A stretch of DNA of 64,000 nucleotides. Origin: Amphirosellinia nigrospora (lineage: Eukaryota > Ascomycota > Sordariomycetes > Xylariales > Xylariaceae). Shown here in pieces: positions 360-60,199 of the stretch; position 1 is the first letter of the stretch; every line of letters begins with the position of its first letter. The position numbers were made by a program, and so were the translations under genes. The DNA lies in contig SCHM01000002.1 in NCBI GenBank assembly GCA_004123355.1, positions 8,467,569-8,531,568 of the forward strand, given 5' to 3'. A model generated the notes under the pieces. That model was not told the origin of the DNA, made no database searches, and saw only the letters and a program-made list of their open reading frames with translations.

Positions 360-2600
360 TTAGGCCGGCGATTTGCTCGGAGGAGCGCCGGCACCATTCT
401 GACGAGCGTCGCCACCGCTGACAGACAATCCACCCATACCGGAGGATAGAAATGCGAAGGGGTCATTCTCTGCCTGTCCCGCGTAAAAGTTGTTAGTGTT
501 GTTGTTCGACGGGCCTGCTGAGGCAGGACCATTGCCAGCGGCTTGGAAGGCGGCCTCGGCAGCACGGCTGTCAAATGGACCGGCAGAGTGAGATCCCGGG
601 GCCGGGCCGAAATGGGTATTGAGCGATGGATAGGGAGCAGCGCCTCCGCCGATCCCGGATGGCAACGCATAGGTACTAGGTGGTCCTCCAAAGTGTTGAC
701 CGCCATAACCACCGGATGCCCCAAAGGGAGCACCGGCCGAGGCGAAGGGTCCGGGGCCAGGGGTGCCGGCCATGGAGCCCGATCCCATACCGTAGTTGGA
801 ACCACCGTCCATCGGGGCTGGATAGCCCGAGTCGGCCACCATAGCAGCGCCAGCACGACTCGAACCACATCGAAGGCAGCAGACATTTTTAGCGAAGTTG
901 TGATATCCACAGACTTCATTGCCACATTTCCAATCACCGGCTCGGAAGGGAACGGGACCACTGCCTCCCATACGGCCACCACCATGGCCCATGTTCCCGT
1001 GGTGACCACCGTGGTGAGGAGGCGTCATCATAGCCGGAGGCCCATAACCGTAGCCGTAGCTCGCCTCACCCTGGGGTCCACCCATGGGGAATGAACAACG
1101 GAAGCAGGCTGTTCGTCGCTGGAAATTGGAGAAGCCACAGGATGGGCATGTCCAATCACCAGGACGAGGTCGGTTTTTACTGGGTGGAAAGGGGGTTAAG
1201 ACTTCGGCCGCGCGATCCAGCACACGGCTGGAGGAGGGAGAAACCTCGATAGCTTTCTCGTTCAGAGCGCGTCCATTCATACACAAACTCTCGGCTGCCT
1301 GCGAATCGCCATTGTCAGCGATGGAAACTTTAGCGAGTGAGTTGAGAAAGAAGAGGGGTTTCGTTCATGTAATTCTAGGAGAAGACATAGCGAGCAAGAA
1401 CGAGCCGTCTATATAACAGACCGATCTTAGATAGACTAACCTCTTCGTGGGATGAGAAGACAGCAAAGCCGGTGCCTGTGGGTTTGTGTTGCTCGGGGGT
1501 GCGCAAGGTCCAGAAAGCAATGGGACGACCACCGAATTGCGTAAACCAGCTCTCGAGCTCCGATTGAGTAGTGTCATGAGGAAGCCCAGACATGTGCAAA
1601 ACCTTGCTACGCTCCGACAAAAAGGCGCGCACATCGGCACGAGCGTCCATGGGACGGGTAAGAACATCGGGATGATCTTGAGGGGTTGAGATTTCCTGAT
1701 CAGCCCACGAAGAACCCGGGCAAGTGTCACAGCTTCTTCCATAGCACGCCTCGGTGAAGCAGGGGCTAGGGCTTGTAGGTGGAAGGGGAGGTTATGTTTG
1801 ATGGGGGCACTCGACTGGACAGGCTCGACCTCCAGGGCGGCGCATATGTTGGAGAGCATGGACGGTCCGAAGGGTAGCGACTCGGGATGGTGTTGCTGCC
1901 AGCGCTGGTACTCGGTGCGCAGGTCGAAGGTGCGCGAGTGTTGTAGATACGGGGAAGCACAACAGCCTTGTCGCGAGCTTCGCGAGGAAGCTGGACGCGG
2001 AGATCCCAAGCATCGAGGGTGACGAAGACGAAGTCGAGATTCTGCGAGGTCAGGTGCTCGGAGGCGAAAGCATCAAAGCGATTGATAGCGTCTCGAAAGG
2101 TGCCAGCATTGCGCACATGTTCCCACGTCAACGTTGTGAGACTCGCTGTAGCAGCGGGCGTGCACCCATGGTCAGCCTGCTAAGTTCCTATCCGCTCGGT
2201 TGACCCGGGCTGTCCGGGTGGTCGGATCAAGGGAACTCACTACAAAGGGGGGTGATGGGTGTATTGATTGGCTTGACGAGTACGCTTTCTCGGTGTAACT
2301 ATTAGACGCAAAGTCCCTAGGTCAGCCCAGCCGCATATGGATCGGCCTCGTCGCAGGCTCGCGAGGATGGCAGGAAGGGGCCGGCATAAGATGGGACAAG
2401 ATGGAGCAAGACAGGACTGCGAGTCAGCAGTGGTGCAGCGTACCTCATCGAGGGATTTGGCGTCGACTACGATCCAGCCAAACTCAATGACCTCGGCAGA
2501 GTCCTTGGTCACATACACGCCGTGTTCGTCGCATGTGGTCGCAACATGGATCACGACGTATCGGTCCGTATGGGGCGGCGGGCGTCTGTTGGTTCGACAT
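360..2600 (-). CDS. Nrp1-like RNA-binding protein (exonuclease-fold + RRM + two RanBP2 zinc fingers), frame-disrupted
   Basis: Four exons on the minus strand: 2444-2600, 2241-2298, 1441-2145 and 360-1298. Introns are 145, 95 and 142 bp, and each junction restores family-like sequence (PITPLCTSLTTLTWEHV spans introns 1-2). Domain order: N-terminal DEDDh-exonuclease-like fold, an RRM (SKVLHMSGLPHDTTQSELE... FAVF), two RanBP2 zinc fingers (WTCPSCGFSNFQRRTACFRC and WKCGNEVCGYHNFAKNVCCRC-type), then a long Gly/Asn/Ser/Pro-rich tail. The architecture matches yeast Nrp1 and its filamentous relatives, cytoplasmic RNA-binding proteins found in stress granules. Exact RNA targets are unknown. Three single-base breaks lie in runs: one base missing at 1951-1954 and at 1682-1685, one extra at 2572-2575. 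After correction the CDS is 1860 nt (619 aa). The start at 2600 (MSNQQ) depends on the third correction. The catalytic DxE of exonuclease motif I looks lost. Confidence 0.85.
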
Positions 2601-4924
2601 ATTCGTGTTCGAGACAGCCTGTACGGGCCACGAATAAGGACAGACAGGATGAGGGTGCCGAGGGTGACCGGGGCTTGCTGGTGCCAGGTCGGGATTCGTT
2701 GTCGAGACAGCGATTAAGACAAACAGACACAGTAGCTAGAACGATTGCCAAAAGTTAGATAAGATAGTACAATTAAACCTAATGTTTTCGGTTGGGTATG
2801 CCAAGAAAAGTTGCCTACAAAATACCTATAATGTCTGTCGTATCTTGTCGTTTTTTGCTCCTGTTCCTACTTTCTCTGCTTCTTCTTGGAGAACGAGCGA
2901 CTGACCTCAACTTGCACTCGGGAGAAATAAAACAAGAGAAGACCAAAGGGCTTTTTGGGGAGAAAAAAGATAAAAGGAACAAATAATAGAGACGGTGAAA
3001 GTGGTTGGATGAGCGGTGTAATCGGTGCTCCGGAGCTTCAGCTCAGGGGCGGCAAGGCGGAAAAGGTTGGGATATACGGGCCACCTGACGCTCCTTTTTT
3101 TTATACCGCTGGAGAATGAGGTGCTGCTGATAGCGATGACGACGTCGGGATAAGACTGATGCGGTACAACGATAACAATAGCACGGTCGCGAAGGGCGGT
3201 GGAGATGCAGATGCAGATGCGAATGCAGAGGACGGGATGCTGGATAGAGATGCAGAGGATGCAGGCGGAGGCGGAGACGAGGGCGAGGGCGAGGGCCAGG
3301 ACGAGGACAGGACGAGGGCGAAGATGGGGGTCGTGGACGGGGAGGGCGACGGTTAGGTGGAAGCGGAAGCCGGGACGACGCGAAATGTGAAGAGCCCCCC
3401 GGGTACGATTGTCGGTTTGTAGAAACACGGACAAGTACAAGAAAGTCGATGCTGTCTGTCTGTTGGTTTTTGACAGTCCTCCAGCTCCACGAGTCTGCTT
3501 TGGCGAGGTCGCTGCGACTAAAAGAGCTACAGGGTAGGTACATCTGTACGCCAGCCGCCGCCAGCCTTCCTCTGACTGGTTCGCAAATAATCCGATGTCC
3601 ACATGTGCGCTTCAGCATCAGTCCACTCTTCGTTAATGTTACCTACTAGTTCTGTTTCTGTTTCTCTTTCTACATAGATACCAGGTAGATAGTGTAGAGT
3701 ACCTACAGATTAAGCATGCTGCTCACATCATACTTGACATAGGCTAGACATAAACCAAAGCTCACAGAAGCCGATAAATGGTAGGCATGTAGCTCTTTGT
3801 ATTGCCCCCAAGCTATTGACATCCAATCCATTACAAACTTCTTGATTAAAAGTGAGTGTGTTGTAATAAATTAATAAGATAATAAGATAATAAGATTTCA
3901 AGGTTGCTTATGTGTCAAGAAGCACCTCATCGATTGAGTTTTTGATTAAGTCTTCTCAAGCTCTCCAAGATGAATTGAAGTATTAAGTACTATAACATGT
4001 ATAACATGTATATGTACCTCGGTGCCTATATTTCAATGGACCATGGATGTGGCCATTGGCATTGGTCTCCACGTTTCTGGTGCAGAATTATTCAAAGCCG
4101 ATACCCATGTACATAGATAGGGCAAGGAGTTACTATAGAAACCGCTATAAAAATACAAAGATATCAACAAGCAGTCTCAGTCAACGGGATCTAGGCGCTA
4201 GATAAAAATATACTCCTCGATTCGGCGCCGATGCCGCCGATAGTTTGGCACTAATACAATTCCTATACATACATGCAATGCAGCCTTGAATTCGTAAGTT
4301 TCCCTACTACGTCATGGAACATTTGACCTGGACATGAAACAGATGCACATTCTATCATCAAATAGTAGGTATACATCTCCCGGTCGGGTACAATTAACCA
4401 CAAGACATATCATCTGTATACAACACCTACAAAATGTGGGTGCACATGTAGGCATAGCCACATATGAAGGAGACACCAGGCCAAATTGAGTATTGGAGCT
4501 ACCGAGACATTACGTGGCTGACCATGTGTATATGTGTAACGATAAAATACCCTATATACATGCTTGTGCTTGGCCACAAGCGCCTCGATCCCACCCGTTT
4601 GCTGCGTAACGTCTGAAACTACCTTAGGTAGCTGTAGGTACTGTAGTTAGGTAAGGTAGTATGTGTGGGGGTTGCTTATGTGATACCGATGAAATCATCG
4701 GGTACGCGGCAAGTACCTTGCCGTGTGTGCCAGATCAAACTACCACCTTGGTGTGTGTGAAAGAAGCAGGAATAAAGCTTTCTTGGTTCTTGTTCCAACC
4801 TTCATCTACATTCTACATTCCTGTGTCAACCTACAATCCACCACGACTTGTTCACCGAACCAGTCATTTCAAGCCCCGATCGCATTTTCAAACGCAAAGA
4901 TAAAAATAGTTGCTATTTTTGAAG
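2601..4924. other. Intergenic region with shared upstream sequence of two divergent genes; purine-rich tract and short repeats
   Basis: This lies between the divergent Nrp1-like gene (minus) and the PMP3 gene (plus). At 3190-3360 there is a low-complexity G/A-rich stretch (repeats of gatgca, then gagggc) that produces long spurious frames on both strands. At 3873-3896 an AT-rich tandem repeat (aataagata units) occurs. No conserved protein is encoded. It probably contains both promoters and 5' UTRs. Confidence 0.5.
3873..3896. repeat. Short tandem repeat (ataagata units)
   Basis: Three near-perfect copies of the 8-bp unit taagataa in tandem, directly visible. It is a simple AT-rich satellite in non-coding DNA. 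Confidence 0.8.
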
Positions 4925-5361
4925 ATGGGTGCTGCGTCGGCCGTTCTCGTGGTGATTATCACCCTTCTATGTGAGTCCTTGACCCAAGAAGATCCCGCAC
5001 CCATATATGAAAACAGCCGGTTGACCGAGATTATCTAGTCCCTCCAGCGGGTGTCGCCATTGTGTCCGGGTGCGGCGCCGACCTATGCATCAATATTGCA
5101 CTCACGATCCTCGGGTATGTTCTATAGTAGATGCGGGTAGGCCAAAGATTGACAAATGACGACAGATATATTCCCGGTCACATTCACGCCTTCTATATAG
5201 AGTACGTCTATTACGACCGTCAAGAGCAAGCAAGGCAAGGGCGCTTGGCGGCCAGACGAGCGCCGGGCGTATACAGTGATCGCGTTCAGACAGGCGGACA
5301 GAGCTATGGTACGGTGGTCCAGCCTGCGCCGGCACATTACGTCAATGAACCGGTTGCCTAG
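4925..5361 (+). CDS. PMP3/UPF0057-family plasma membrane proteolipid
   Basis: Three exons: 4925-4970, 5039-5114 and 5166-5361, with introns of 68 and 51 bp (GTGAGT...TAG and GTATGT...CAG). The spliced CDS is 318 nt, 105 aa, with no frame problem. The N-terminal half has the two hydrophobic helices of the family: MGAASAVLVVIITLL, then FPPAGVAIVSGCGADLCINI and LTILGYIPGHIHAFYIEYVY. The signature is the GCGADL loop and the LTILGYIPGHIHA segment. Yeast Pmp3 and plant RCI2 relatives are small plasma-membrane proteins that affect membrane potential and salt tolerance. This copy has a C-terminal cytosolic tail of about 45 residues (RQEQARQGRLAARR... AHYVNEPVA), as in longer filamentous-fungal paralogues. 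The start is the first ATG, and hydrophobic sequence begins at once. Confidence 0.93.
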
Positions 5362-6361
5362 AGCGTGATGAACCGACACAGCAGCCGAGGTAACATGACC
5401 AGCGCTGTTGAAGGCAATTGACGGCTGGCTACTCTCTTGGACGGCGGGCAAGTTGCAAATGAAAAAACGACATGGTTGATGTTAGGGCCCTGGCGTTTTA
5501 AGGGAGATATTTACTTGACTTAGGCTACAACTTCTTGCCTTTGTCCTGTTTGCGCCAAGGTTGTATGATAGTATCACGACTCAGCTCACGATACATAGTA
5601 ATAATAGGGAAGCTTAAATAACTATATCGCTTAATAGTCAGTGCAGAGCAATTGCTCTATTTTCGCTTTTATATTTTGTCTCGATTCTTTTTTTTTCCCG
5701 GAGAAAGACCACACCTATACCTGCCAGAGCATATGAGAAGCTATTAACATACCTAGGTACCTAAGCTTGATCCCCAAAGCGTACCTGATGAATATTAATA
5801 GGCAAGGTGACGCTAAGGTCTAAGGAGCCCCTCCCCCGCCATGACGGCCACAAAGCGACCAATCAAGCATCCCGATATATAGTCCCATCTAGCTGTCTCG
5901 ACCTACTGGGCTGATGATGAGCCGTTCAATCGGCCGGGTTCTATCAATCCAACCATTCGGAGAACACCACGAGTTTTTGCAGGCCGCCGCAGCAGTTTCA
6001 GCAGCCAGTCAGAGACAGCGCCAGACGAAGCTGACAACGACAGCAACGTGGCATTGGCATTAGCATTGGGATTGAGTCGGGAGCAGGGACGGCAATGGGA
6101 AAGCGAGGGAAAATATCGAATTGATGCTTCCAAAGCTGGAACCACACCCATTTTCCATTTTACAATTGCCCATCTCGTACGCCTGTCCTTTTCTCTATCG
6201 CGACCCTCTGTGACCCTCACCTCTCTCTCTCTCTATCTCAGAGAATACAGACAGACTAGCACAGATCCCACATCTCACATCCCACACCAAGACAAGCAAA
6301 CTAACTACCTACACAACAGCTGCCGTGTCATTTTTCCGCAGCGCCACGCCTCCCACGCAGG
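5362..6361. other. Intergenic; CT-rich 5' UTR region of the next gene
   Basis: There is no coding signal in the first half. At 6195-6240 a pyrimidine-rich tract with a CT microsatellite (ctctctctctctctct-like) lies just upstream of the next gene, typical of fungal promoters and 5' UTRs. Confidence 0.5.
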
Positions 6362-7991
6362 ATGGCGTCACCCCAATCCGACAACGCAGCCTTACCATCA
6401 TCCAGCTCCAACTCCAGCTCCAGCTTCAACGCCAACAGACCCCATCATCTGCTCGCTTCGCAGCCGCCTCTCGACTCCCACCTTTGTCGCAACCCAATAC
6501 TTCGTCCGTCTCTCTTGTGTCAAGTACCGCTCGCGGGCAGCCCATCCCTCTGAGCGATGCCACTGCTGCCGATCGCACCACTGCCCTGCGAGAGCTAAGC
6601 CGCTCTCAGCCCACGGCCCGCCCTCCGTATCCTAAACCTTCTGGTCCGCCGCCGAGCGCCACCGGCACTACCCCCGGCACTACCACCGGCACCTACTCTC
6701 AGCCCGTCTTGGTCCGCACTTATTCAGGTCCCCTCTCGTCCTCCACGGGGGTCCGTTCTACGTCTCGCCGGGATGCTGTCTCTGGCGTCCAGGGTCGGCC
6801 CAGCGCCCCCTCCTCCAGTCGCAGCCGCCGTCCCCGCCATGGATTTGCCGTGACTCTCATCCGACCGCTTGTTAGTAGAAAGCCATCGCCCAAGGACGAT
6901 GCAAAATTGCCGCCACTCGAGGCCTTCAGCTTCAAAAGCATAATGGCAGAGCTAGAACAAGATATTGGTGCCGATCTAGATCGCATTGCCGATATCTGCG
7001 CACGATCGCGATACTCGTTGAGTAACCAGTACGAGATCCATGTCGCTCCTCATGGCTCTGGTGCTGGCTTTGTACAGGGTGGCTCGTCCGAGGCATCCAC
7101 GAACCCGCCCAGCCACGATAACGCAGGCCCAACCCTGCAGGCCCCATCTATCGACGATGAGCACGGGGACACCACTCATAGAAGAGTTACGGTTCGGCGG
7201 AAGAGCGCCGCATATGGCACTCTAGAGACCATCATCAGCTCAAGCCGCTCTTCGGATGAAGACAGGAGTAAGAGGAAGTCGGCTTCCGAAATTGCAGCAC
7301 AGGTACGCGGTCGATTTCCGCATTCCAGCCCAGAAGGGAGCGGGAGTGGGAGCGGTGATACCACTGAGGCCCAAGCCAGCAGCGATCTCCATGGCGAACG
7401 GACCAAGAGGCCTTCACAGGCCCGGCCTACCTTAGCTGCAGCCATTCTCGACCACTCTCGTGCCCAAACCCACCATCACCCCGATCCGCCGTCGCCGCGG
7501 ACCTCGGGCATGAATCTAGTGGGCGAGCCCGCCGTCCCCGAAACCTCTCATAGTCACCTCGTTAGTACTACACCCGCGAAGGGCTGTCTCGCGAGGGTGG
7601 GAATATCGGATCCTCTGTGAAGGAGCAGACTTCGGTTTCTGTGGTATGCTTCCATTCCTCCCTCCTCATTGACATGGCTTTCCTTGCCATGCATCTTATG
7701 CGAAGGGTGCTACGTCCAAGTGTACTAATCTTCCTACAGTCCAAGTCTGTAGCTGCTGCTGCTATCACTGCCCCAGAACAACCAAAGGGCCAACCCGGCC
7801 TGTTAGGTGGATTTCGATTCAGCATTCCCTGGAAAGGTACATCTGTGACAAAACCGTCTTCGACAGAGCAAAAACCAGGTAGGACTAAGAGCTACGCCGA
7901 AGGCACTTTGAGACAGCTATTGGGAATCACCGAATCATCAGGGACCCGAGAAAGGAAGTCTGCTGACGGCGGAGGTGAGATGGCAGAGTGA
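6362..7991 (+). CDS. Ser/Pro-rich conserved fungal protein of unknown function, frame-disrupted
   Basis: Two exons, 6362-7643 and 7740-7991, separated by a 96-bp intron (GTATGC, branch ctaat, ctacag). Start chosen at the ATG at 6362 (MASPQSDNAALPSSSS), because the longer frame at 6325 opens with GTG and no ATG. One base is missing in the C run at 6440-6443 and one in the G run at 7595-7597; corrected length is 1536 nt, 511 aa. The protein is largely disordered and Ser/Pro/Arg-rich. One well-structured block, LPPLEAFSFKSIMAELEQDI followed by ADLDRIADICARSRYSLSNQ, resembles a block I recall in filamentous-fungal hypothetical proteins. The C-terminal exon ends in a basic/Ser-rich tail. I do not recognise a function. 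There are no membrane segments and no signal peptide. Confidence 0.65.
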
Positions 7992-9821: not shown

Positions 9822-10452
9822 ATGACCCACTCTCGGAGCCTACCCGTCCTGGCCACCGGGGCGCTGTCCTCCATCCTACCTTTGTTCCCCTCTCATTATT
9901 AGGGAACACCTCCAGACAACTATCCGTCATACCCTACTAACAATTGCCCGAGCTGCTCGAAACCGGAACATTGTTCCAACGAGGGCTGGGACTGGGCCTA
10001 CTGCCCAACCCCCTGACCAACAACGGGGAGAACGATCCGGGCTTCCGGGCCGACGCGTTCAAGCCTCAGATGGCAGGATCTACAACTCGACGAGCACGCT
10101 GAGCAGCACCTACTTCGTGCTGAACCAGCACGCGTACCTGTAGGCCTGCGAGAAGGGCGTCTGGCAGTTTGACAACGCCGACGCCCGCGCCGCGTGGACG
10201 TTCCTGGGCACGGGCGCGCATGCGTGTGCGGCGAGCTTCACGGCGGATCTCGAGGGCCGCGCTTTCGTACCCGTCCGCTTCGTGTTCGCTAACGCTCAGG
10301 GCGGCAGCGCTTTCCGGGTCACTATCACGAGCCCTAGCGGTGTCATCGTTCATCAGACGGGACGTGCTACGAACAATGATTGGATTGTGTGCCACTCGTG
10401 TGACTATGCACCGAAAGCCCCCGAGATCCCTAGTTTCGGGCAGGAGTCTTGA
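9822..10452 (+). pseudogene. GLEYA/PA14-like adhesin lectin domain, decayed
   Basis: From the ATG at 9822, a signal-peptide-like start (MTHSRSLPVLATGALSSILP) runs to an in-frame TAG at 9900. Conserved segments follow in changing frames: NCPSC..EHCSNEGWDWAYCP, then PGFRADAFK, then IYNSTSTLSSTYFVLNQHAYL interrupted by TAG at 10141. Next come ACEKGVWQFDNADARAAWTF and FVPVRFVFANAQGGSAFRVTITSPSG, ending near APKAPEIPSFGQES and TGA at 10450. The WDWAYxPNP opening, the PVRFVFANAQG core and the final PEIPSFG are typical of GLEYA adhesin domains, which bind glycans at the fungal cell surface. Some frame changes are C-run indels (10003-10005, about 10053), but the two stops are not explained by indels. 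I therefore call it a pseudogene; an undetected short intron at the first stop remains possible. Confidence 0.65.
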
Positions 10453-16244: not shown

Positions 16245-17452
16245 TTATCCTCCCATCTCCACATCCTCTCCACCGCCTCCCTTCCGCTTGCTCTCGAGGC
16301 GCTGTATGGTCTTTGCCTTGGCCTCCTCGATCCACTTCTGATACGCGGCGTCCCCGCCCTCGGCGAGCTTGTTCTCGACGACGCCCTTGAGGACGGCGCC
16401 GGCGAAGCCGACGAAGTTGTGTCTGCGCAGGGCGTTCTCGTACTGCCAGTCGCGGCGCTTGCGCTCCTCGCGCTCGAGGGCCTCGGCGTCGCCGATCTCG
16501 CGGGCGCGCACGCGCAGGTCGCGCACCATGGCCATGAGGTTAAAGCGGATCTCGGACAGGTCGTAGCGCGCGACGCGGCGGCGCAGCACGTCCATGACCT
16601 TGGCGGGGAACTCGCCGGCCGCGCACGGGCCGTGGCTGATGGGCGCCGGCTGCAGGCCGTCGAGCTCGTACAGCGTGCCGTGGACGGGCGTGTAGGCGAT
16701 GAAGTGGAAGGCGTCCTCGGGCTCGCCGCTCGTGCGCTGCGTCTCGTCCACGAACGGGCTGCTCTTGGCGAAGCTGTTGTGCACGTCCCGGATCAGCTCG
16801 CTGTTGCTGAGCGTCTCGCCGCGGAACTCGGGCGGCAGCACCATGGTGAACTCGCGGAACTCGCGCAGCGGCTTGCCGATGTCGACGCCGGCGCCGCCAT
16901 CGCCGCCCTCCTCATCCTTGTTCAGGAGCACCGAGAGCAACGCCTGCGTGCCGCAGGCGTTCTGGATGGTCTGCGCGGCGAAGAATATGTGTTCCGAGGC
17001 GTCGTGGTCAAAGGTGCCGTCGAGCGGCTTGTCGGCGGCGGCATAGGGGGCGTCGGTCGGGTACTTGAAGAGAAAGATGACGCCGTAGACAGGGTCTAGC
17101 GCCTCGAGCGCTTCGGGCTCTAAGGTGAGCAGCTCCTCAAACTGCACATCTTTGGCGCCGAGATTGTTGAGGAGGAACGTGAAGACGCCCTGCGCCCGAG
17201 ATTGGTCAGTCAAACGCTGCCTGGCTACCTGACTGACCTACCTGTGACACCGACCGCCGAGGTATCTTAGGTTGGATGCAGGTAGGTAGGTAGGTAGGTA
17301 GGTACTTGGTAGGTAGGTTAGGGACAAGGGCTGCCCCAGGGACGGCCTACGTACCGCATCTGACTCAACTATACCCAGTGCATTAGCGTTTCCGTCCGTC
17401 CATGCTGCAATACTTCGGTATGCTGCTCACTCGTATTCCAACCACCACTCAT
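16245..17452 (-). CDS. Ubiquitin carboxyl-terminal hydrolase, UCH37/UCHL5 type (peptidase C12)
   Basis: Three exons: 17431-17452 (22 bp), 17355-17368 (14 bp) and 16245-17189; introns 62 and 165 bp. Splicing gives an N-terminus MSGGWNTIESDAGVFTFLL, exactly the family opening, and a 981-nt CDS (326 aa) in frame. Catalytic residues are all present: oxyanion Gln85 and nucleophile Cys91 in QTIQNACGTQ, His174 in DAFHFIAY, Asp189 in YELDGL. A coiled, Lys/Glu-rich C-terminal extension (ULD-like, WQYENALRRHNFVGF ... KAKTIQRLESKRK) marks the UCH37 rather than the UCHL3 branch. Members trim ubiquitin chains at the 19S proteasome regulatory particle. The exon body is very GC-rich compared with its flanks. 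Confidence 0.94.
17276..17326. repeat. GGTA microsatellite inside a UCH37 intron
   Basis: Tandem ggtaggtaggtaggta units lie inside the 165-bp second intron of the UCH37 gene. On the gene's strand this reads as repeated CTAC, so it may add pyrimidine content but also makes the intron length unstable. Confidence 0.85.
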
Positions 17453-18147: not shown

Positions 18148-20473
18148 TTAGTCCAGGGAAGGGAGATCGTAGTCCATGTGATGGGGTCGGAGGACCTGCA
18201 TCTGCTTGCCTTCAGCCGAGGCACTACGTGAGCCTTGGTGGACTGTACTGTCACAATCGGCTAGCTCTATGCCGTCCTTGCGAATGCCTCCTGTGGCATG
18301 ATCGGGAAATAATTTGCGGCAGACGAAGCGCATCCAAGCCGGCATGTCTCGTTTGCCGAGGCCAAAACTGTAGACCTCCTTCGATTGCCAGTTGGCCGGG
18401 GTCACTCTTCCGCTTGTTAACTGTACCACGGCCCAGATCATTGTGTTGAGAACAATGTATACAAGCATACCCCTGATGATTGTTAGTGGCCATCGGTCCG
18501 GCAGTGTCAAGTAACCTACGCGATAAGACCGTATGCAACACTATAACTGAATGGCATAAATGCTAAAGTCACAAAGGATGGTACAGCATCGCCAATGTAT
18601 TGCCAATTGATGTTGGTGACCTGACGGATCATGAGACAACCAACCTAGATTGCGATTCAGTATGACTATTCCAATATAAAGTGCCGGCATTTCTGAGCTT
18701 ACTAGGATGAGTGTCGCCCCTGTGGCCCAGGGAGGAATAGAGGCGAAGATTGGAGCAAAGAAGAGGCTGATGAGAAAGCAAAATCCGGTGGAAATTGCGG
18801 TCAGCCCCGTCCGTCCACCTTCAGCAATTCCAGCGCCACTCTCAATGAAAGCGGTGACCGGCGAGCATCCGAATAATGAACCGATCGAAATGCACGCTGC
18901 GTCGGTGCAATAGGCAACAGTTGAGCGCGGGAAGTCGCCATTCTCTTCGACGACGCCACAAAACTTGGCCATGGAATACAGTGTTGCTGTACAGTCAATG
19001 ATGTCAACATAGAGAAATGTCACGAGAGCGAGCGCAAACTGAGCACCGCTTGCCCCTTCAAGATTCCACTGCTGTACCGCTAGTGTTGTTTCAATCGGAT
19101 GAAAGGCAACGATCTGTCGAAAGAACTGGTACCGGTTTTCTCCTTCGGCTGTATATGGGAAGTACGTGAAGGACGTATTGCGACTAAAACAAGTTAGCTA
19201 CGAATGTTAGACACCTAGAGATACTGACGGCCAGGACAGAATTGATACGAGTCCGATGCCGATTATAATGGCGCTCTTGACTTTGAATGCCATCAAGAAA
19301 GCAACAAAAATGCCGCCGATAAAGATGCCGATCCACATCTGCCTGCTATGAGCTTGTCATTCCACAATACCAATATGATTAAACACATACCGCAGGATTT
19401 GTCATTATCCCTCCGCTGCACTCGGCGCTGCCATCCAGCATCTCGGGGGGCAGCCACCAATCGCCAAGGGTGTAGTGAAGCCTCCAGTAATTGCTCCGAT
19501 GCCAGCAGAATAAGAGAGGCCGATCTCAGTGAGGAAAAGTCCAATCCCGACCCCACAGGCGGTTTTAATTGTAGCTGGTATCATGCGGACCAACCATTGT
19601 CGCATTCCTGTCAGGGCCAGAAACATGAAGATGAATCCCTCCACGAAAATAGCAGTCAACGCAATGCGATATGGTATATGGCCAGAACCGCGCCAGCCAA
19701 CAACCTGGTAAGTGAAATACGCATTGAGTCCCATGCCTGGTCTAGAAACGAGTTAAATAAGTATCTTGATGAGTAGCAACTCACGAAATACGAGCACTGA
19801 CCCAAGAGCAACAGGAAGATTAGTCAAGAATCCGAAGAGGATGCTTGCAAGGCCAGCTAAGGCCGAGGTTGCAGTAATCAGGTCTCGCTTCAAGACTACA
19901 CATCAACGCATTAATCACTAATCACCTTACACTATCTATATGTTTCTGTGAATTATGCGAGTACTCACGTGTTTGACACATTGTCATGACCGGATCGCCG
20001 GGGCAGCCAGGATCAGATCCACTTGGACACTCGCAGGTACCTCCAGAATCAGAGAGTATGGCAGACTAATTTTATGGTTAGCGACTCAATAAATCATACC
20101 CAATGGTGTATTACTCACGTTGACGGCGATGATGTACGCCATAGTGGCGAAGGTTGTCAAGCCAGCTCGAATTTCTCTACAGAAAGTCGCCCCTCGTATA
20201 GACTTCGGCTACGCACTATCAGCATAGGAAAGAACCCAATGGCCCCGACAGAACATAGAATAAAATGTGTAATGGCAAGGTGCCGGCCTTGGATATATCT
20301 TCGACTTTGATTGCAGCTTTTGAACCGCGTACGAGTACAAGTCGCGCAGTGTTAAGACGTCATGTAGCAAACTTACGTGACCTGAGCCCTCAAGGCGGAA
20401 GACTCGTCCAAACGTGGATCGATTAATCCTCTGGTCTAAGGCAGAGGCTTCTCTTTAATCCTCTCAAAGCCAT
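18148..20473 (-). CDS. AzgA-like purine (adenine/guanine/hypoxanthine) permease, frame-disrupted
   Basis: Nine exons can be placed: 20377-20473, 20119-20208, 19969-20065, 19802-19895, 19391-19741, 19229-19338, 18703-19183, 18520-18644 and 18148-18472, with introns of 45-168 bp. Family segments in order: FRLEGSGH; EIRAGLTTFATMAYIIAVN; KRDLITATSALAGLAS; NLPVALGPGMGLNAYFTYQV; the FGCSPVTAFIESGAGIAEGG loop; and NWQYIGDAVPSFVTLAFMPF. These define the AzgA-like nucleobase/proton symporters, with about 12-14 membrane helices. One base is missing in the six-C run at 19445-19450 (within AIGGCPPEMLDG). The proposed start at 20473 needs one base less in the run at 20454-20456, so the N-terminus is uncertain. 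Corrected CDS: 1770 nt, 589 aa, normal for the family. Confidence 0.88.
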
Positions 20474-25513: not shown

Positions 25514-27516
25514 ATGTTTGACGTCATATGGACTGATCCCAATGTTGAGCGAGTGGGACAGCGGATGCTGAGAAAAGAGCAAGAGGCAAAGGAAAAGGAA
25601 AAGAAAAAGGTTGGGAGCTATCGCCAGTCAGTTTCTACCACCAGCTCGTCTTCTAGCGAGCGGGCTTTCAATTTGTTCGGCTCCAAGAATAAGTGGAAGG
25701 GCGCAACACCGTCTGGAGGAAAGTCGAATTCAAGCGCTCATACAAGAAGAACCGGAAAGCGAGCATGTGAAGGCTCACCGAAGTTCGATACACGGCGTCA
25801 AGGCTGCGCTCACTAACCAAAATGAACACGACATTTCGCCTAAACCTTCCAGCGGCCCTTTCTTAGCAGACCAACCCCCTAAGCAGGACGAAAAACGGCC
25901 ACCGTCGCCGCGAGGTAAGTGTCAGACTCATAAACACATGGATCAAGTTTCTGATTGATAGGAATGCTAGACTCTGTCTTCTCTAGATGGGCACACCAAG
26001 CAGCTGTAGCAACTGATGTTTTAGACAAGATGGTGTCTAACGACATCGTCTCAGAAACCAACACAGAATCCTATATACAAGAACTCGACCCATCCTCTTG
26101 CATCATACAAATTATCGAAAAGGAAGTCTGGCCACGTACCGAGGCAGACATCGATCAAGAGGTGATAGAAACTCACATTTCATCTGATGCAGCCAAAACT
26201 CAGACACCATCTTTGGCAGAAGTCGCTGAAGATGCGTAAGTTGATCTTATTGCAACTTCAAAATTTATAATTGTTAACATATTACAGAACATTCAACACA
26301 TGCGAAGACCATGAACCCCTTCCACCTCCTTATATATGTCCCCAAACCCCACCGCCAATGGATTATCGGCCTCATGAGGCCTTGTCTTCCCCGAGGCATC
26401 AAAATTATGATCGCTTAGCAAACCCAGATGCATGGAAGCCTCCACACGAGTGGGACTGTACTCCAACAAAGCAAGCCGCTACGACTACCATCAATGAACG
26501 CCTACAAGTGTCGCCTACTAGCCAAGACAGGAATACCGCCATGTTTCCAGCTTTTACAGCCTTACAGCGAGAGTGCCGTATGATGGCCGCAGCCAGTCAA
26601 GAACTAATGCTAGCAAATCTCACGTTAAGCATCGGAAAGTCTCCAGATGCAACAGTATATAAAGAGTTTGAGATGACTAAAAAACGTTGGATGTTATCGG
26701 TAATGCATCAGCATGGCGGTTACGCACACTTAATCGAATCAGAGGGGCTCCCGAATAGTCCTAATACACCTCATCGTAATAGAATTTTGGCGCTCTATGA
26801 GACACCTAGTGAGTCACCACTGATCTAATGTATGGGAAAGGCGACTAATTTATATACAGCCACGGCTTCGTTTCTCGCAGCTCTCTACCCGGAAGTCCCG
26901 ATGACTCACTTGTCGCCGAACCCTCTATCGCCCGACTTATTCCCAGTATCCAGCCGCTAGTAGTGCCCTCGGTCTCGATTTCAGCTGGTTCACGGGCTCT
27001 TCGCCCCTAGTATATTCCACAGTAACTTGCTTGTCAATGCCCGCCCTATTTCCTTCGACGGACATACCACCCTTCCTCCGCCATATCAACCGATGTCTAG
27101 CACCAGGAGGTGCCCTACACTTGACGCTTATTGATCCACAGCCTGTGTCAACATCGATGGGTCCAAAACTAAGACACTGGCTGTTTACATACCTCCTGAT
27201 CAACTTAGAACAAGCATTCCGCACTACGTGGCCTAGCAAGACCTTCCCAACTTGGCTAGCACACGGAAACCTTCGGGGCAAAGGGAGTACCATTGCGACC
27301 ATAACAGTCCCGGCAATCTACGAAGGTCCCCATGAAATGGACATGAAAGCAAGGCTACGTTGTGTGACGAGCAGATTGCTATGGCAAGAAGTATGGGGCA
27401 GGTTTGTCGGCGCCTCAACGTGGTGGTGGGAGGATGAAGAGATAGTGCAGGAGTGCGTTGAGTTGGGTACTCACTGGCAGTACTCTCACATTATCGCAGT
27501 GAAGGGAGATCGCTGA
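25514..27516 (+). CDS. Class I SAM-dependent methyltransferase-like fungal protein, frame-disrupted
   Basis: Four exons: 25514-25914, 25962-26235, 26288-26808 and 26860-27516; introns 47-52 bp. The N-terminus MFDVIWTDPN followed by a Lys/Glu-rich helix matches a recurrent fungal family. The C-terminal part has the methyltransferase core: ALFPSTDIPPFLRHINRCLA, PGGALHLTLIDPQPV, LINLEQAF, LLWQEVWGRFV and TWWWEDEEIVQECVELG. The post-motif PGG-LHLTLIDP strand and the WWWED segment are diagnostic. A classic GxGxG motif is not obvious. Breaks: an extra base near 25735-25745, and a missing C at 26942-26944 and at 27004-27007. Corrected CDS: 1854 nt, 617 aa. Substrate unknown; this is not LaeA itself, though the fold is the same. 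Confidence 0.78.
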
Positions 27517-30579: not shown

Positions 30580-32005
30580 TCATGTTATTGTAGAACTGTG
30601 ACTTCTCGAGGATTTCGGCATCGGTATCGCATTTCCAGCGAGCTCTGTCATGCTATCCGTATCTTCGCCTTTATGATTCCGAGACCTGAGGGTGAAGGAA
30701 AGGTTGCGCTGGTCTTTGGGCGGCCCGGCAGATGGAGCGCCATGCCTCGTCTTATGTAGAAGTTCCGAGAAGAATAACTTGACCGCGGTCCAGGATGTGA
30801 CAGCATAGATGACGGCATTCCAAAATCCTTGTAGAGGAAGTACAATCGCACTCAGAATCTCCAATGCCACCACGGTTTCGCCCCCATGGACGACACTATA
30901 CACTCTATTTGCCGACGATGGAAGCCAGGTTACGGCGAGGGCGGTGAAGAAAAGGAGGGCACATTTTGTATAGGCCCAAGCTGCGCTATTGAGATCGTGG
31001 TTCTTCCTCCGCTTCGCCTTGGCCTGAGCCGGAGTGTCTGTGCTGCTTGGGACGGGGGGAGGCTGGCGCGGCTCACGCTCGGAAGACGACGAAATCGTGA
31101 TCGAGTAGGCAGCCGACGCCTTCGATTCATGGGTAGACCTTGAATTGGGTTCCTGAAGGGTGTGGGCGTCAACCTTCGGCTGAGTCGCCGATTCGGATGT
31201 GACGCTAATCTCGGTAGTCTTCACCGGGTAAGCATCTTCCAACTTGAACATCTCAACGTCGGTACCGCCACCAACACTACTACTGTCGAGTTTCCGTAGC
31301 TGTCTACGTTTCCTGTAAATTTCGCCGCCCGCTCGAATATAGATGAAAAACGTAGCTATGAGCACGACCCTGTGGAAAGTCAATACAGTGATGGACTGGC
31401 TACATAATAGATGAACCACTTACCAGATTGGTCCGTAGAAAGTAGCGATTCTTAGAATATCCCATTGACTGTCTACCCAGCACCACAGAATCGCATCGCC
31501 GTAGATTCTCCCCTTTTCCTTAGTAGATATGAAGATATAGGCCAGCGCTGGGGAAACGGGACCCATAGCAGACCAAGAGATACCACTTTTCTATCCTTTT
31601 AAGCTTCGCGGCGTCGAACTTCCAGTAGAACGTAAGATAGACATTGAAGGCCATGGCAAGAGCCCATAGCGCATCTGATGGCAAGAACCTGTCGCATATT
31701 GCATTAGACGTGAAGAAACTTGAAACAGCGGCCAGCTCACTGTTGGATTAAGAATGCTTGTAGCTGGCACCCGACAGAATTCTGTTTCTCGACATAGGCG
31801 CGAGCGATAAGCGTCCCGACGTTGACCAACATGTTACCGAAAGATGCATAAAACATGAGGCGGTTGATAGGCTTACGAAAGGCACTAGAGCCTAAGAAGG
31901 TGAATATGACGAACAGACATCCTATCAGAGAGAAGACGGATCCGACTCGTTCGATAATGCTGATGGCATGTAGTACGCCCGGGGCGGTACTGTCCTACTC
32001 TCCAT
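30580..32005 (-). CDS. cAMP-receptor-like seven-transmembrane GPCR, frame-disrupted
   Basis: Three exons: 31741-32005, 31424-31688 and 30580-31369; introns 52 and 54 bp. Seven helices are recognisable, from GSVFSLIGCLFVIFTFLG (TM1) with the loop FRKPINRLMFYASFGNMLVN, through ALWALAMAFNVYLTFYWKF and WDILRIATFYGPIWVVLIAT, to TKCALLFFTALAVTWLPSSA and LQGFWNAVIYAVTSW (TM7). The RKPINR loop and NAVIY motif are typical of fungal cAMP-receptor-like (GprH-type) receptors. These are thought to couple to heterotrimeric G proteins in carbon or developmental sensing. The third intracellular loop is long (about 130 residues, Ser/Pro/Lys-rich). One base appears missing at 31994-31995 near the start and one extra at 31562-31564. 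Corrected CDS: 1320 nt, 439 aa. The ATG at 32005 is tentative. Confidence 0.85.
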
Positions 32006-36912: not shown

Positions 36913-37019
36913 TTTAGGCGGCTTGTTTCTGGCAATATCTATCCTCTTGGTAGAGAGACACGAAAGGACAATAAGGAAAAGGAAAATAAACAAAGGAAAA
37001 AATGGTAAAATAAAATGAT

Positions 37020-39114: not shown

Positions 39115-41917
39115 TCAGAAACAAGGACTTGGAGCACCAGGACAAGGAACCATATTGTTATATAGGTTAGGGGTATTGCCCATTGCGAGAAAACAGGGTA
39201 AAACGAAATGTGAGCAGTTAAGCTCTTCACTTTCTCTACTCCAAAATCGATCATTCTTAGTAGGAACTGTATCTTTTACCACACCCTCCTTCCCTGGAGG
39301 TAAGGCAGCAGTAGTCTGAGGCGTCACCTCCTCATCTGTCATGAGGTCGAGCACCGGACTTGAGTCTATACTTCCTTTTACCGGTTGTGGACTCAGTACC
39401 TGAGCCGACCGCGCCACATAAGTTGGCGACACCAACTCCTCAGAACCCATAGGCACAGGCCGAGGCGGTAATTTGTTGCTATCTCGCCCACCACCACTAA
39501 GCTTTTTAAGAAGTTCTTCGCTATGCTGTGTAGCTAATTTTGAAGCTGTGCCACAGGATCCTTGTGAAACGCGCAGAGCGCAGCGAATTAGCAACGACAG
39601 TCTGAGGGAGTCCACCTTCGGCCATGCACACATACCCAATCAGTCTGACCGGGAACACCGACTGCGGCGGGGAGTAGCGGGCCGTTGTCACCTTGGCTGG
39701 TACTCGGTCCACCGCCCCAGAAGTTGGACCGATGGATAGGCGCAGGCGTAACAGGCAGACTGGGACGCTCAACTTCAGTTGGGAAGTCGGTTAGTTTACT
39801 CCCTCGCCGCGGCCGTGTGACATCATCTACGCCTTCACCAGGACCTTGGCAAATTAATTTTGCCGGGGGATTTACGGCTTCTTGACCTATGAGTCTTTTG
39901 TATGGAATCGACGTATCTCTCGATTTCAGGTACTTCATCCCATGCATTCGACCGCGAGTACGTAGTCCACGGATCCGCCAGCGAGATTTGGATGGTAGGG
40001 TGATGGGTGTCACCGGCTCGCTCTTTGGTTCCACTGGAGGGGTTTCTGCAACAGAAGACTCAACCATTGGTTCCGCCGCAAACCCAGGCTGTTGCTCACC
40101 AGAAAGCGCATCTGGATTGCGCGTCCTCGTGCCTTGAGGCGCGTCGACGAATACACGAGACGGCTTAGGTCGGTTGGCCTCCCAAGGAAAGATAGGCTTC
40201 AGTGGTTCTGAGGGAGCAGCTGGGGCGTCCTTTGGAACCTCATACCACATGTCTTTCGGTGGGCTCGGGTAATTCTGAGGGGGGATAAAGGGAACAGTGC
40301 TTTTCGACATTTCATATATCGTAGCAGGGAAATTCATGGCCTCAGGCTTCGACTCTGCTGGAGGTGGTTGTCTATCATATCGTTAGTAGCTGATTTGTCA
40401 TTCTCACTAGGCGAGGGAAGAGAGGAGCCTACCTTTGAGCGTCCCAGGCTGACATAGAGGGTTCGAATGGCGGGGGCTTCTGCTCTTCTTGGGGAAGGGG
40501 TGGAGGCAACCCTTGAGTATAGATCTGCTCTTTGCTAGCTTTAGCTTGACTGTTTTCGTTATTTCTTGGAGATGGAATCACATCGCTAGAAACAAGACTA
40601 GAAGAATCATGCTGCTGCGTGCTGGCTTGGGATAAGGGCGCTTCGTGGCTGTGCGTATCATCATGTGGGTGGCGGTGCTGGCTGTGCACTACATAACTGG
40701 AAGCATCATGGCGATGGTGTTGTACTTGAGATGAAGTCGGAGGATTCTTATGGCTAGAAATATTATAGGTCATGGGCTGGTATTCCCCTTTAGTATAATA
40801 CTGCACAAGCTTTGAAACCTGATTGGTAGCCGGCGCTACGCCAGGAGGTTGGGCTGATGCTGGGGATGTGAGCTGTGGCGACTTGAGAATGGTAAGTAGG
40901 GCATTCGATACGTGGTTATAAAGTGTGAAGGGCGACCTACAGCGGCGCGATAATGCCGATCATAGACTGCCACCACCTCCCCGTCATCTCGTCAAACGGC
41001 GAGCTTCCAATGCTCGCATGCCGTCCATTAAACCACGGCTTATCCGGCCCGATGAAATGTACCATGTTGATGCTCGACTGAAAGTGGCTGTAGGCGGGTA
41101 TGTACTGGTAGAGCAGACGGGGTAACGTTGTACGTGAAGCTAATACGGTTGTAGTTGTTTCGAAAATGTGTGTTAATAAGACCCTGGTCGGCTCCGTCAA
41201 ACGAAATGCCCCGTTCGGCCATGGCCATCATAGCATAATAGTCACCCATATTGGGGGTCAGAACCATGACGCCCGTGTTGAACAGATCGGGCCATCCGAT
41301 GTCTGGGGCCGCCGAGAAGGATGCACGATGTCGAACAGCTCATCGGGAGCTCGATAAGCGACGACGTCGGCGTCAATGTAGACGATCTTGCGAAACTGAG
41401 TTTGTTTCCAAAGGTTGATCTTGGTAAAGGCCGAGTGTAGGTCGGTTCGGTTCATCAAGCGCAAATTGGCTGGCTTGCGCATTGTAGATTCGAGGGACGG
41501 GAATAACATAATGATAGACGGACTGGCGAGGGGGATCAGCATTATACACAGCCATCGACTTGTCATTATGACGAGCTCACCTTGAGCTCAGTGATGGCTT
41601 CAGCGGAAACGGTATCGAGGGTAACTAGCGCGACTAACTTCTTGGTCGTACCAGCATCGCGCAGAGATTGCGCCAGGACTAGCGCACCTAGATTCACGGC
41701 ATCAGAATTGTATTCTTGTATTGCAAGTCAATTGAGGTTGGAGCTCCTACCAGGCAAATACGTGTCGGTCAACAATACCTAGTATCGCAGGCGGTTAGTC
41801 ATACGTTGGCGTGAATTTGAATGTGACTTCCAATGTCATGAGAATAGGTAATGAGTGACGAACTGTAGCATACACGTCCTCTCCTCCATTCCCTCCCCCA
41901 CCACCCTGCACAGCCAT
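39115..41917 (-). CDS. Glycogenin (GT8 self-glucosylating initiator of glycogen synthesis), frame-disrupted
   Basis: Six exons: 41864-41917, 41751-41778, 41581-41687, 40433-41522, 39636-40371 and 39115-39560; introns 58-85 bp. The GT8 domain reads ATVLLTDTYLPGALVLAQSL, then INLWKQTQFRKIVYIDADVV with the metal-binding DAD, NTGVMVLTPN, ADQGLINTHF, a Tyr-rich YQYIPAYSHF region near the expected acceptor tyrosine, and GPDKPWF. A long disordered Pro/Ser/His-rich C-terminal half follows, as in filamentous fungi, with the conserved SLPVTPAPIHRSNFWGGG and a terminal coiled segment (QLATQHSEELLKKL type). At least six breaks occur: near 41471-41485, 41321-41330, 41108-41116 (two bases), 40970-40971, 40930-40932 and 39538-39541. 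Corrected CDS: 2466 nt, 821 aa. Start is the ATG at 41917 (MAVQGGGGG). Confidence 0.87.
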
Positions 41918-52402: not shown

Positions 52403-54277
52403 TCCGTTTTTTGGCTTTGTACTGTACTGGATTGAGAGATTGCATCATGGCATGGCGTTGGCGGCGTTGACTTTGTGTCTCTAAGAAGAAGGAAAAAACC
52501 AGATTAGATGGGTTTCGCTGCTGCCAATTCAGCGTGCATCGTTTGGGCCCAATGCTCAACGCAACACACAAGACAGCATATTGAGAATAGAGTCTTCTCA
52601 TTTCCACTGTCCTGGAAGCCTAGACAGAGACATCCAGCAGTTTTAGATACACTTCATAGTTCGAGAACTCGAGATCCGGGCATATACCCTAGGGCCCCCT
52701 CCTATTGACCTCTTAACCCTTAGCTGAATAAGTCCATTACGAGGTGTGATATATCTTTCGAGGGTTAAAACACATCATGGCGCTACAGAATCATAACTTA
52801 TCTATTATTGGCCCCGTTTCCCTTGGCGTCCTTCGTCCGGGTACATGCCCGTACCACTAGCTACGCCGACGAATTCAAGACAGCTGATGACCTTGTCGTC
52901 GTTGTTATTCATGTACGAGATGACCACGATTCATGCTTTTTCTATTATCCTTTATTTCTTCCTTTGCCACGCAGTATCTGTTCTTGTAGATAAGTTTCCA
53001 AAGCCCCTACTTCGCAAACCCACCGACTGATAGTTAAGAGATCCCATGTTAAAGTAGCAAAGTGTGGATTTAGTAGTATGTAGTTCAAGCATGCATACCA
53101 GGGAGGCGTGGATACACGACCGTTTATACGATATCCCATGATGACCTCGACACTTTATTTGTTATATTGACCAAGGCCAACGCGGTCTACTATCCTGGCA
53201 ACGACTGGGGGTATTTGCTTTGGTTGTCATTTTATTCTTTTCATTTCTCTTTTGACTCCTTGAGGTTTTTCGTTTGGTCTTACTTCGCTACGATAATACA
53301 ATGGTACCCACCCCCCCCCAACTTGACTTGAGCAGGTGAAGGATTAGAATAAACACAGCACTGGGCGGAATCAGAAACTTATGAGAGACGACTTACTCGA
53401 TGTCAACCTGCCCGGCACCGGTTTCCACGACGCTCTTAGCAAATTACCATACGAATGGGAAGGGCGCAGTCCGCAAACTTAGACTACGATGACGAGATTT
53501 GATTACCTAGCGTCCCTCAGGGCGCCCAGCGAGTGATTCACGATCTCTTTTCTGACACGTCGCTTAAGAAATATATTATCTATCTCGCCCTCTATCTAGA
53601 AGCAGATCTACGCATTCCATATAGCAAAAGTATGAACTCCACAACCTGGCTTTTGGGCCAAACTAGGATATGAAGAGACCTGCGTAACTACCTAGGTAAC
53701 GATCAAGCTAAATCTACATCTCCTGGCCGTATTGTTTTCTCCTAACTTAAGGCGCATTGGTAGCCTTCGCGTAACAGATGAATCTCCGCAGTTTGAACGT
53801 AATTGATTCTCATTTGATATGCTATTATACAACGTCTAGTAGAATCGAATCTCGATTCAAACTCTGAGCCAGTGACGCCATACTTTTAGCTACCTAAAGT
53901 ACCTATCACCACACGTCGTGACATTACCTTTCCGCTACGTCAGGGAGAGCCTCAGGTTTTCAGCCAAGTATAACCTCCCTGGTGTACAACTCCTCTAGTT
54001 ACTTTTACCACAAGTCATCATTTCCCAACTATTTCCTAATTTAATTCGGGCATTCCTCTTACAGAAACCACGATACCTGATATGGTCTACGTTTATGTTG
54101 GAGACGAGGGTCCCATGTTTTCAAGACTCATTAGGTTCGTGCCAAGAGGCACGCCACCTGATGGCACGGAATGTTCGAGTACTGTGGCTAACAGACTAGA
54201 TAGACTGTCCTACCTATCTGAAGCATTACCGACTCGGGCATTATCAACTCGATCCTGATCTGAGTTCGCGTCGAATT
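52403..54277. other. Intergenic, no gene seen
   Basis: The HRD1 3' UTR, then AT-rich DNA. A run of ten Cs occurs at about 53311-53320. The last 100 bases before 54278 read in frame with the HET gene (SLKHYRLGHYQLDPDL-like), so that gene may begin further upstream. Confidence 0.45.
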
Positions 54278-56350
54278 ATGTGCATAGCTGAAGGATGGCT
54301 AAGAACTTGTCGTGAACGATACACATATTGTTCAGTCGCCGGCGGTACTACATTTCTTCCAACACGACTCATAGATGTTGAGCCGGCCGATGGCTCTCAA
54401 GCCCCGCGTCTAGTATCTGAAGAAGGGCTCAAGGCAGAGTATATCGCTCTGAGCCATTGCTGGGGCGATCAAGTTGTGCCCGTGCTGAATGCAAGCACAT
54501 TAGATCCATTTAGGAGTGCTATCCCAATGATTGAACTCCCAGCAAACTTCCGTGATGCGATTGTCATTACCCAAAGCTTAGGAATTTGGTACATATGGAT
54601 TGATTCACTGTGTATACTCCAAGACTCAAAGGAAGACTGGGAGAAAGAGTCCAGGAAAATGAGAGATGTGTATCGAAACGCAGTGCTTACGATATCCGCG
54701 TCCGCGTCACCAGGCAGTAAACATGGAATTTTTGGAAGTGTCCAAGCACACAGCCCGACTTCGCCGACAGGGCACGCGTATTTGAGGATATTTGACAATT
54801 CCAGCGGACTCCAGGGAGAAATTCGGGTTGAAATCGAAGACAAGAACGAAAAACCCTCAATAAGCTTGAGGCGACTGGCCCACTCAGTTCACGCGGCTGG
54901 ACCCTGCAAGAGTCTATGCTCTCGTCGCGACAGCTATTTTACGGGACACGACAGATATACTGGCGGTGTGAGTATGGGTTTCAGTGCGCGGAGAGCTTGC
55001 CATCGAAAAGTGACCGAAATCCTGAAGACCAGTTTGACGACCTGCGGCGAATGATATGTGGCGACCCTGACAATAATACCCAATCTTCCTATATACTACC
55101 GTCAGGCACGTCGAGGAAATGGCAAAATCGACGCCTACCCCTAGAATACGGCATGGAGACGAAAAGCAATCAAGTATAGGACCACAAATCGAGCCCTTAA
55201 GTTTCTATATTATCCAAGTTCCTACGCTGCTGGCTATCCATTGAGTGCTGCAGCTTCCTGTTGTGAACCTACTATAACAAAAGTAACACATTTCAAGATC
55301 GCTTTTAGCTACCTACTTCGGGAAAGGAAATTTTCTTACAGTAAGATAGCAGAATATCTCCAATGGTGTAAACGAAGAGCTTCTTTTCACAATTTGTGAG
55401 AATTACTATGAGCTAGTGGAAGAATACTCGCGCCGCCACCTGACTGTCCCAGTGACAAGCTTCCTGCATTTTCAGGACTGGCGAGAGCCCTTCGCGGAGT
55501 TTTTAAGCATCATGATCCGTTTTACGATTCTGCTCAAATGCCTACCCCTACTGCGTATCTAGCCGGAATATGGGTGGCAGACCTATATCGCGGCTTAACA
55601 TGGTACGGTAGCGAAGGACTCTGCCCACACGTTGTCAGTTATCGGGCGCCGTCATGGTCGTGGGATCCGACAGACAAGCCAATCACATTTTGGCATGGGT
55701 TTTATCCATCTAAGCTCGGTCTAGATATACTTCACTATGGAATCGAGCTTCAAGATCCGGAGAATCCATTTGGCGAAGTTAAGTGCGCCGAGCTTATTGT
55801 ATGTGGGCGAACCAAGAAGTTGAGACGAAGCAGGCAAGTATTTGGGTCAGACATGTCTGACGAGACACTCGGATACTGTAATTTCGACGAAGAGGATGAC
55901 GAGTCACCCTAACGATCTATGATCCTAGGCTCGGCGCTTTTCCTCTCAAATCGGGATACCACAAGTGAAGATAAGGATTACATTCTTTCCAGCTCCCAGC
56001 TGTTCCACGGAGCTAAGCGCCAAATTATCTACCAGAGTCTAATTTCTACGCACGAGTATCTCTTGCTGTTGCTGGGCTGCTATGACGACGGTTTAGAAGA
56101 CAACGGCACGGCGAGCGCCGCATGTCTGGTAATTCGACCCGTAATAGAAATCATCTTCCTGAATAAAGACGACTCCGACCACTACTCCCTAGCTTCTTAC
56201 TTCAATAAAGAAAGACATTATACTGGTGTCCATTCACTTCAGTGCCCAGACTACCTGGTAGCCGCCTTCAATATGCTGTACTTGTTGAAGATATCAATTC
56301 TAGGTATACATCATCTAAGGGCATCTACAACGTCCGATAAGCTGCTCTAA
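54278..56350 (+). CDS. HET-domain (heterokaryon incompatibility) protein, frame-disrupted, possibly a pseudogene
   Basis: HET domain motifs are clear: AEYIALSHCWG, LPANFRDAIVITQSLGIWYI, WIDSLCILQDSKEDWEKES, MRDVYRNAVLTISAS, and later SSRGWTLQESMLSSRQLFYG, ELVEEYSRRHLTVPSDKLPA, GLARALRGVF and VSYRAPSWSWDP. HET proteins mediate allorecognition and regulated cell death in filamentous fungi. The reading frame breaks at about 54867-54872, 55448-55450 (C run), 55907-55909 (C run) and near 55965. In addition, 55180-55345 is stop-rich, either an unrecognised intron or decay. The ATG at 54278 may not be the true start. I cannot separate assembly error from real pseudogenisation here; HET genes often decay. 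Confidence 0.75.
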
Positions 56351-59300: not shown

Positions 59301-59460
59301 AATATGACGATGATATGGGTAACCGGTGAATAACGATGATGTGGTGACCATGGCGCCGAAAAGAGGTATCAACAAATCTAAGGAAACCGCAACTCCGTAT
59401 CCATGCAGTAGATTAACCCATGAAAGATGCGAGTAAATAAGGATGCATGAAGAAAAAAAA
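56351..59460. other. Intergenic, no convincing gene
   Basis: Three kilobases downstream of the HET gene. A frame at 56982-57314 with a hydrophobic stretch (ISNIGIVVALIGLSILKSVR) is the only hint of protein, but it lacks support. A short A9 run lies near 58501-58511. Confidence 0.45.
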
Positions 59461-60199
59461 TCACAACTCCTTAACCGGCAGCACGAACCGGACCTTCTTC
59501 CTAGGCTTTGCAGCCGGTATATCTATAGGCTGGGTCTTCTTATCCGAGCCGTCGTCGAGATCCTCGATGCTCAGTCCCATCTCGCTCATGGTTTCCTTCT
59601 CGGGTTCTTCGTCGATGGACCAGACGTCCGGACTGGGTTCGCGCCAGGAGTGCCGTCGCTGAAGCGTGCGAGCGCTGGGCCGGCCTCGAAGACTGGCACG
59701 GCGGGGCGGCGGGCGAAGCGCTTGGCTAGGCGGCCCCTGGGCGATCCAACGTGGAATGAGGATGGTGATAGTAGAGTTTCGGCACTTTGAGACAGGCCAT
59801 GGTTGGGGAGCTATGTCGAGGGTGATCGAAGTAGTCGTCGAGGCCAAAAGGCAGTGACTTGTGGGAATTAAACCGTATGTAGTCCTCTTCATCGTCGTCG
59901 TCATCGTCGTCGTCTAGGATAGCACAATCCGATTCCTTCTTGGCCTTGTAGCGCCTAAGGCCATCGAGCGTGGAAGGACTCACGCTCCGTACAATGTGGC
60001 GGGGCGTGTTTGCATCCTCGATGCCAGCATCGAAGTCGAACTCAAATTCAAAGTCGTCCTCCCCGGGGGTCGCGGGTGTCAAGAAGTATTTGAGAGGATT
60101 CTCGGGCCTTGAAGAGCTGTCGATGTCTTCATCGTCCGTGGACAGGCCGTCCCTGTCGTCGTCGAGTGCCGGCGGAAATCGGCTGGACTTGAAGGCCAT
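59461..60199 (-). CDS. Acidic fungal protein of unknown function with a KVRF motif, frame-disrupted
   Basis: A single exon. It starts MAFKSSRFPPALDDDRDGLS and is rich in Asp/Glu/Ser, including a run of nine Asp (ILDDDDDDDDDEEDYIRF-type). After one extra base in the four-C run at 59734-59737, it continues into an Arg/Pro-rich stretch, then RRHSWREPSPDVWSIDEE and a terminal basic AKPRKKVRFVLPVKEL. Corrected CDS: 738 nt, 245 aa. The HSWREPSPDVWSIDEE block, as I recall it, recurs in filamentous-fungal hypothetical proteins. KVRF fits the RVxF docking consensus for protein phosphatase 1, which is only a suggestion. No membrane segment or signal peptide. Confidence 0.7.

Follow-up and report, generated by a model that had tools for sequence, protein, structure and literature searches.

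The window, that is, the whole 64,000-nt stretch of Amphirosellinia nigrospora DNA under analysis (C4:8,467,569-8,531,568), belongs to an assembly of 48,114,038 bases (48.1 Mb) in 11 contigs. It contains 189 open reading frames (ORFs) of at least 80 aa, and Pfam, run on 40 ORF pieces, supplied names for its genes. Three-frame translations show coding-like sequence moving between frames within the window. The first-pass annotation had read such movements as single-base indels breaking about ten genes at 14 sites, most of them on runs of C or G. For each of these sites, the upstream and downstream frames were picked by eye from the three-frame translations, and the stretch over which both frames remain open was then measured; an open-frame overlap is by itself no proof of a break.

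On the minus strand, an Nrp1-like gene with RanBP zinc fingers and an RRM is spread over several frames (363..2713), with PF00641 in ORF 363-1364 and PF00076 in ORF 1378-1791; the sites at 2572, 1951 and 1682 are included in, but not placed by, overlaps of 230, 307 and 427 nt, respectively. Serine-rich ORFs on the plus strand (6214..7988), defined by open frames only, include the sites at 6440 and 7595 in overlaps of 340 and 55 nt. A permease-family gene (18544..19752, minus strand) carries PF00860 in two separate ORFs, but the matches do not span the site at 19445, around which a 121-nt overlap includes a six-C run on the gene strand. The methyltransferase-like ORFs (26271..27513, plus strand; sites at 26942 and 27004) have a weak Pfam match only (PF13489, E 0.032), with an overlap of 56 or 112 nt at 26942. 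Likewise, the receptor-like ORFs (31522..31994, minus strand) have a weak Frizzled match in ORF 31740-31994 (E 0.013) and a 71-nt overlap at 31562. A HET-domain gene with following ORFs (54200..55909, plus strand) has PF06985 in ORF 54200-55051 and overlaps of 151 and 13 nt at 55448 and 55907. The 'acidic protein' ORFs (59464..60205, minus strand) allow three frame pairs at 59734, with overlaps of 85-350 nt, and ORFs 59464-59913 and 59729-60205 have no match in Pfam. As a comparator, the ubiquitin C-terminal hydrolase gene (16248..17237, minus strand) has no break over its domains, with PF01088 (positions 9-210 of 211) and PF18031 in a single ORF; the cation-efflux domain in the window also reads through unbroken.

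Homology pins down one break in the window, in the later part of the catalytic domain of a glycogenin-like (GT8) gene (40939..41339, minus strand), and this was the only break that the Pfam survey bridged. In one frame a piece matches residues 117-192 of glycogenin-2 (4ueg_A; E 4e-15), and in another frame a second piece matches residues 192-224 weakly (E 6e-4); the end codons of the two overlap at 41,115-41,119, leaving no gap, and PF01501 is present in both ORFs below its Pfam cut-off. This position is absent from the original list of breaks, which named 40970 (55-nt overlap) for the same gene. One frame change in the window requires no error at all. In a SYVN1-like gene on the plus strand, a 49-nt stretch (50780-50828) that starts with GTATGT, holds CTAAC and ends with TAG separates contiguous PF25563 pieces, and is probably a spliced intron, as judged from these motifs. 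A GH47 mannosidase is also unbroken over its domains; its two pieces lie about 180 nt apart, and an intron would fit between them.

Overall, 12 of the 14 listed sites fall within an open-frame overlap, with frames picked by eye, whereas 27004 and 40930 lie outside any overlap with the frames tried. At 26942 and 59734 the site falls inside under every frame pair (two and three pairs, respectively), which makes both weak. A run of at least three C or G begins at 13 of the 14 coordinates, and the remaining one (40970) begins with CC. However, at least three C/G runs lie inside 10 of the 12 overlaps. The exceptions are 55907, where the single run is the listed CCC, and 40970, where the single run is about ten bases off the listed coordinate. 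The window has one C/G run of at least three per 46 nt, and 65% of random 50-nt stretches hold one. Since such runs are common and the overlaps are long and mostly contain several of them, assigning a break to a particular run is mostly a choice, and the exact break sites in the window are mostly not resolvable. The observation of frame jumps in about ten genes is thus confirmed in part. That mended coding sequences come out divisible by three, as the first-pass annotation held, would be weak evidence, since the corrections are picked to produce that result. The frames do agree with breaks that are usually one base short, but the sites read as one base too many (2572 and 31562) are indistinguishable from sites with two bases missing. 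C and G runs of at least six (7 and 9, respectively) are rarer in the window than those of A (18) and T (25), a difference we did not use as evidence because natural A/T tracts may produce it.

The same kind of break is found across the genome. Six families (HSP70, Cpn60_TCP1, actin, HSP90, myosin head and the RNA polymerase second-subunit domain) were searched for strict junctions, defined as neighbouring same-strand matches in different frames, with a gap of at most 5 nt, an overlap of at most 40 nt, and nucleotide and profile spacing agreeing within 4 nt. Pairs in the same frame, or with an excess above 4 nt, an overlap above 40 nt or a gap above 5 nt, were dropped, and a separate RRM search was kept out of the count. 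Over 47,376 matched nt, with overlapping parts counted twice, this gave 25 strict junctions, or roughly 0.5 per matched kb; one break thus falls in approximately every two kilobases of the conserved coding sequence examined. They are distributed over HSP70 (6), TCP1 (6), RNA polymerase (4), myosin (4), HSP90 (3) and actin (2), and over contigs C4 (9), C1 (6), C6 (4), C8 (3), C7 (2) and C5 (1), with none counted on C2, C3 and C9-C11 for the families searched. By the same rule, 46 HSP70 matches from 12 bacterial genomes gave no strict junction in 44,196 nt, compared with six in 11,703 nt for HSP70 here; this control is bacterial, intron-free, limited to HSP70 and drawn mostly from metagenome assemblies. 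One frame-changed pair in the control fails the rule, with its spacing 41 nt short. Breaks are therefore a property of the whole assembly and not special to the window.

By frame, 21 of the 25 junctions look like one missing base and four like one extra base (or two missing). In two of these four, the spacing fits two missing bases, so true insertions may be fewer. Among the 21, two have discordant spacings, one four short and the other two long. An HSP70 junction (G000:C7:1399918-1399927) is spaced four bases short and has no adjoining run of three or more.

Ordinary introns taken for frame breaks are a highly unlikely account of these junctions. Such introns may occur among frame changes, as the stretch at 50780-50828 suggests, and several of the uncounted junctions have room for one, but the nucleotide gaps at the counted junctions are at most 5 nt and usually negative. 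Parallel decay of pseudogenes in this strain, by real mutations, is likewise very improbable. In its favour, the sequence itself does show interrupted frames, but the same breaks are found in genes for HSP90, actin, Cpn60/CCT-family proteins and an RNA polymerase subunit, and the protein remains conserved around them. A single HSP90 gene was found (C4:7,469,114-7,470,635); it is split into four pieces with three strict junctions, and two of the pieces, separated by 2 nt, match the Hsp82 chain 2cg9_A at residues 356-442 and 444-555. In an actin-matching gene with a strict junction (C4:6,654,750-6,655,735), a 107-aa piece differs from actin 8a5d_V at 2 of 106 residues. Pseudogenes would be expected among dispensable genes only, with relaxed conservation, whereas the genes interrupted here include actin, HSP90, Cpn60/CCT-family and RNA polymerase genes, which should be indispensable, and the protein of the actin and HSP90 pieces is conserved. 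Not every copy is affected; two Cpn60/TCP1 matches and one HSP70 match are unbroken over the matched stretch.

Non-coding sequence is affected as well as coding sequence. ARAGORN found no tRNA in the window, so the tRNA comparison drew on the rest of the genome. The best 63 of 1,644 candidates were scored, and all 58 that were listed (4,561 nt) were compared with one another; this set favours intact tRNAs, and no rate is derived from it. A sibling within five differences exists for 43 of the 58, and six differences between near-identical copies among these best-scoring 58 consist of a gap only (1-2 nt). Five tRNAs (L112, L113, L114, L150 and L151) have a single gap against a sibling sequence present 2-6 times, and all five of these polarisable gaps are losses of 1-2 nt: three in runs (GGGG, GGG and TTT), one of a single A and one of two bases. 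The sixth gap, between L100 and L111, cannot be polarised. Two further tRNAs were left out of the count: L140, which has gaps plus a substitution, and L152, which is short by one base but also carries several substitutions. Losses of 1-2 nt between tRNA siblings are not introns. Together with the breaks in actin, HSP90, Cpn60/CCT-family and RNA polymerase genes, they strongly disfavour local or parallel pseudogenisation, which supports the initial preference for uncorrected long-read error over that explanation. Separately, the T arm of a tRNA-Lys-like locus (L147, G000:C4:9402022-9402157) is interrupted by an insert of some 63 nt, which starts with GTAAGC and holds CTAAC and TTAG. By its motifs, the insert resembles a spliceosomal intron and may be one lying within a tRNA gene, or the locus may be a pseudogene or contain some other insertion.

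The context of the junctions bears out only in part the idea that C/G runs host most of the breaks. The comparison covered 17 of the 25 junctions, all but the four from myosin and the four from polymerase. Each junction, with 6 nt of flank at either end, was set against randomly drawn stretches from the same gene pieces in four tests, uncorrected for multiplicity. C/G runs of at least four are over-represented in one of these tests (5 of 17 junctions against 1.1 expected, P 0.003), whereas C/G runs of at least three are not enriched among the 17 (7 against 5.5, P 0.29). Nor are runs of any base of at least three (10 against 8.2, P 0.25) or A/T runs of at least three (3 against 4.1) enriched among the same junctions. 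Since two of the five tRNA losses and one HSP70 junction lie off homopolymers, 'homopolymer error' covers only part of what is seen.

A further possibility is that the sequence is real and its frames are restored by recoding, either by widespread ribosomal frameshifting or by insertional RNA editing. Recoding would account for breaks that are widespread, mostly resemble one missing base and fall in genes that must work, but we consider it extremely improbable. The contexts vary, and inspection of 17 junctions reveals no shared site; both senses of shift occur by frame; and the tRNA genes lose bases too, which frameshifting cannot repair. Programmed ribosomal frameshifting in particular would be expected to show a shared slippery site and a single shift sense, and neither was found among the 17 junctions inspected for the site and the 25 assessed for sense. 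Such recoding is not known to have a nuclear precedent in fungi. The version in which the bases are truly absent from the DNA, and insertional RNA editing adds them to nuclear transcripts as well as to tRNAs, has a somewhat similar counterpart in the mitochondria of slime moulds, and for this fungus we regard it as vanishingly unlikely.

We conclude that the frame breaks are almost certainly consensus base errors in an assembly of long reads whose correction with accurate reads was absent or incomplete. The excess of missing over extra bases and the over-representation of C/G runs of at least four are as expected of long-read consensus error. The cause would lie in the sequencing and not in the organism, and the platform was most likely nanopore. 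We propose a model in which dropped single bases would outnumber added ones during base-calling and consensus building. Such errors would be in excess at longer C/G runs yet would also arise elsewhere, and would strike coding and non-coding sequence alike on each of the six contigs with counted junctions. Most likely, then, the feature is a sequencing artefact and not biology, and the finding is correct and useful as a warning about quality. Any gene loss, pseudogene, split gene or frameshift called from this assembly is unsafe. Two signals used here provide a quality check that requires no reads: pieces of conserved genes that switch frame while staying contiguous on the profile, and tRNA copies that differ by gaps only.

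Comparable errors have been described in other long-read assemblies. Long-read-only bacterial assemblies retain homopolymer-length errors, according to the Polypolish report (PMC8812927); that case concerns bacterial genomes, and its likeness to ours would lie in homopolymer-length errors left in the assembly. A closer parallel is the fungus Drechmeria coniospora. The report on its nanopore-only assemblies states that gene prediction recovered fewer than one-sixth of 305 such genes, conserved and with a single exon, at full length, that most errors lay in homopolymers, that short-read polishing corrected homopolymer lengths, and that insertions outnumbered deletions after polishing (PMC7500977). 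The two cases differ in that short reads demonstrated the errors in D. coniospora, with insertions predominating after polishing (PMC7500977), whereas here missing bases predominate and error is inferred. They are alike in that both concern a fungus with a chromosome-level assembly affected by small indels, which in D. coniospora lie mostly at homopolymers and leave most of a set of conserved genes short of full length (PMC7500977).
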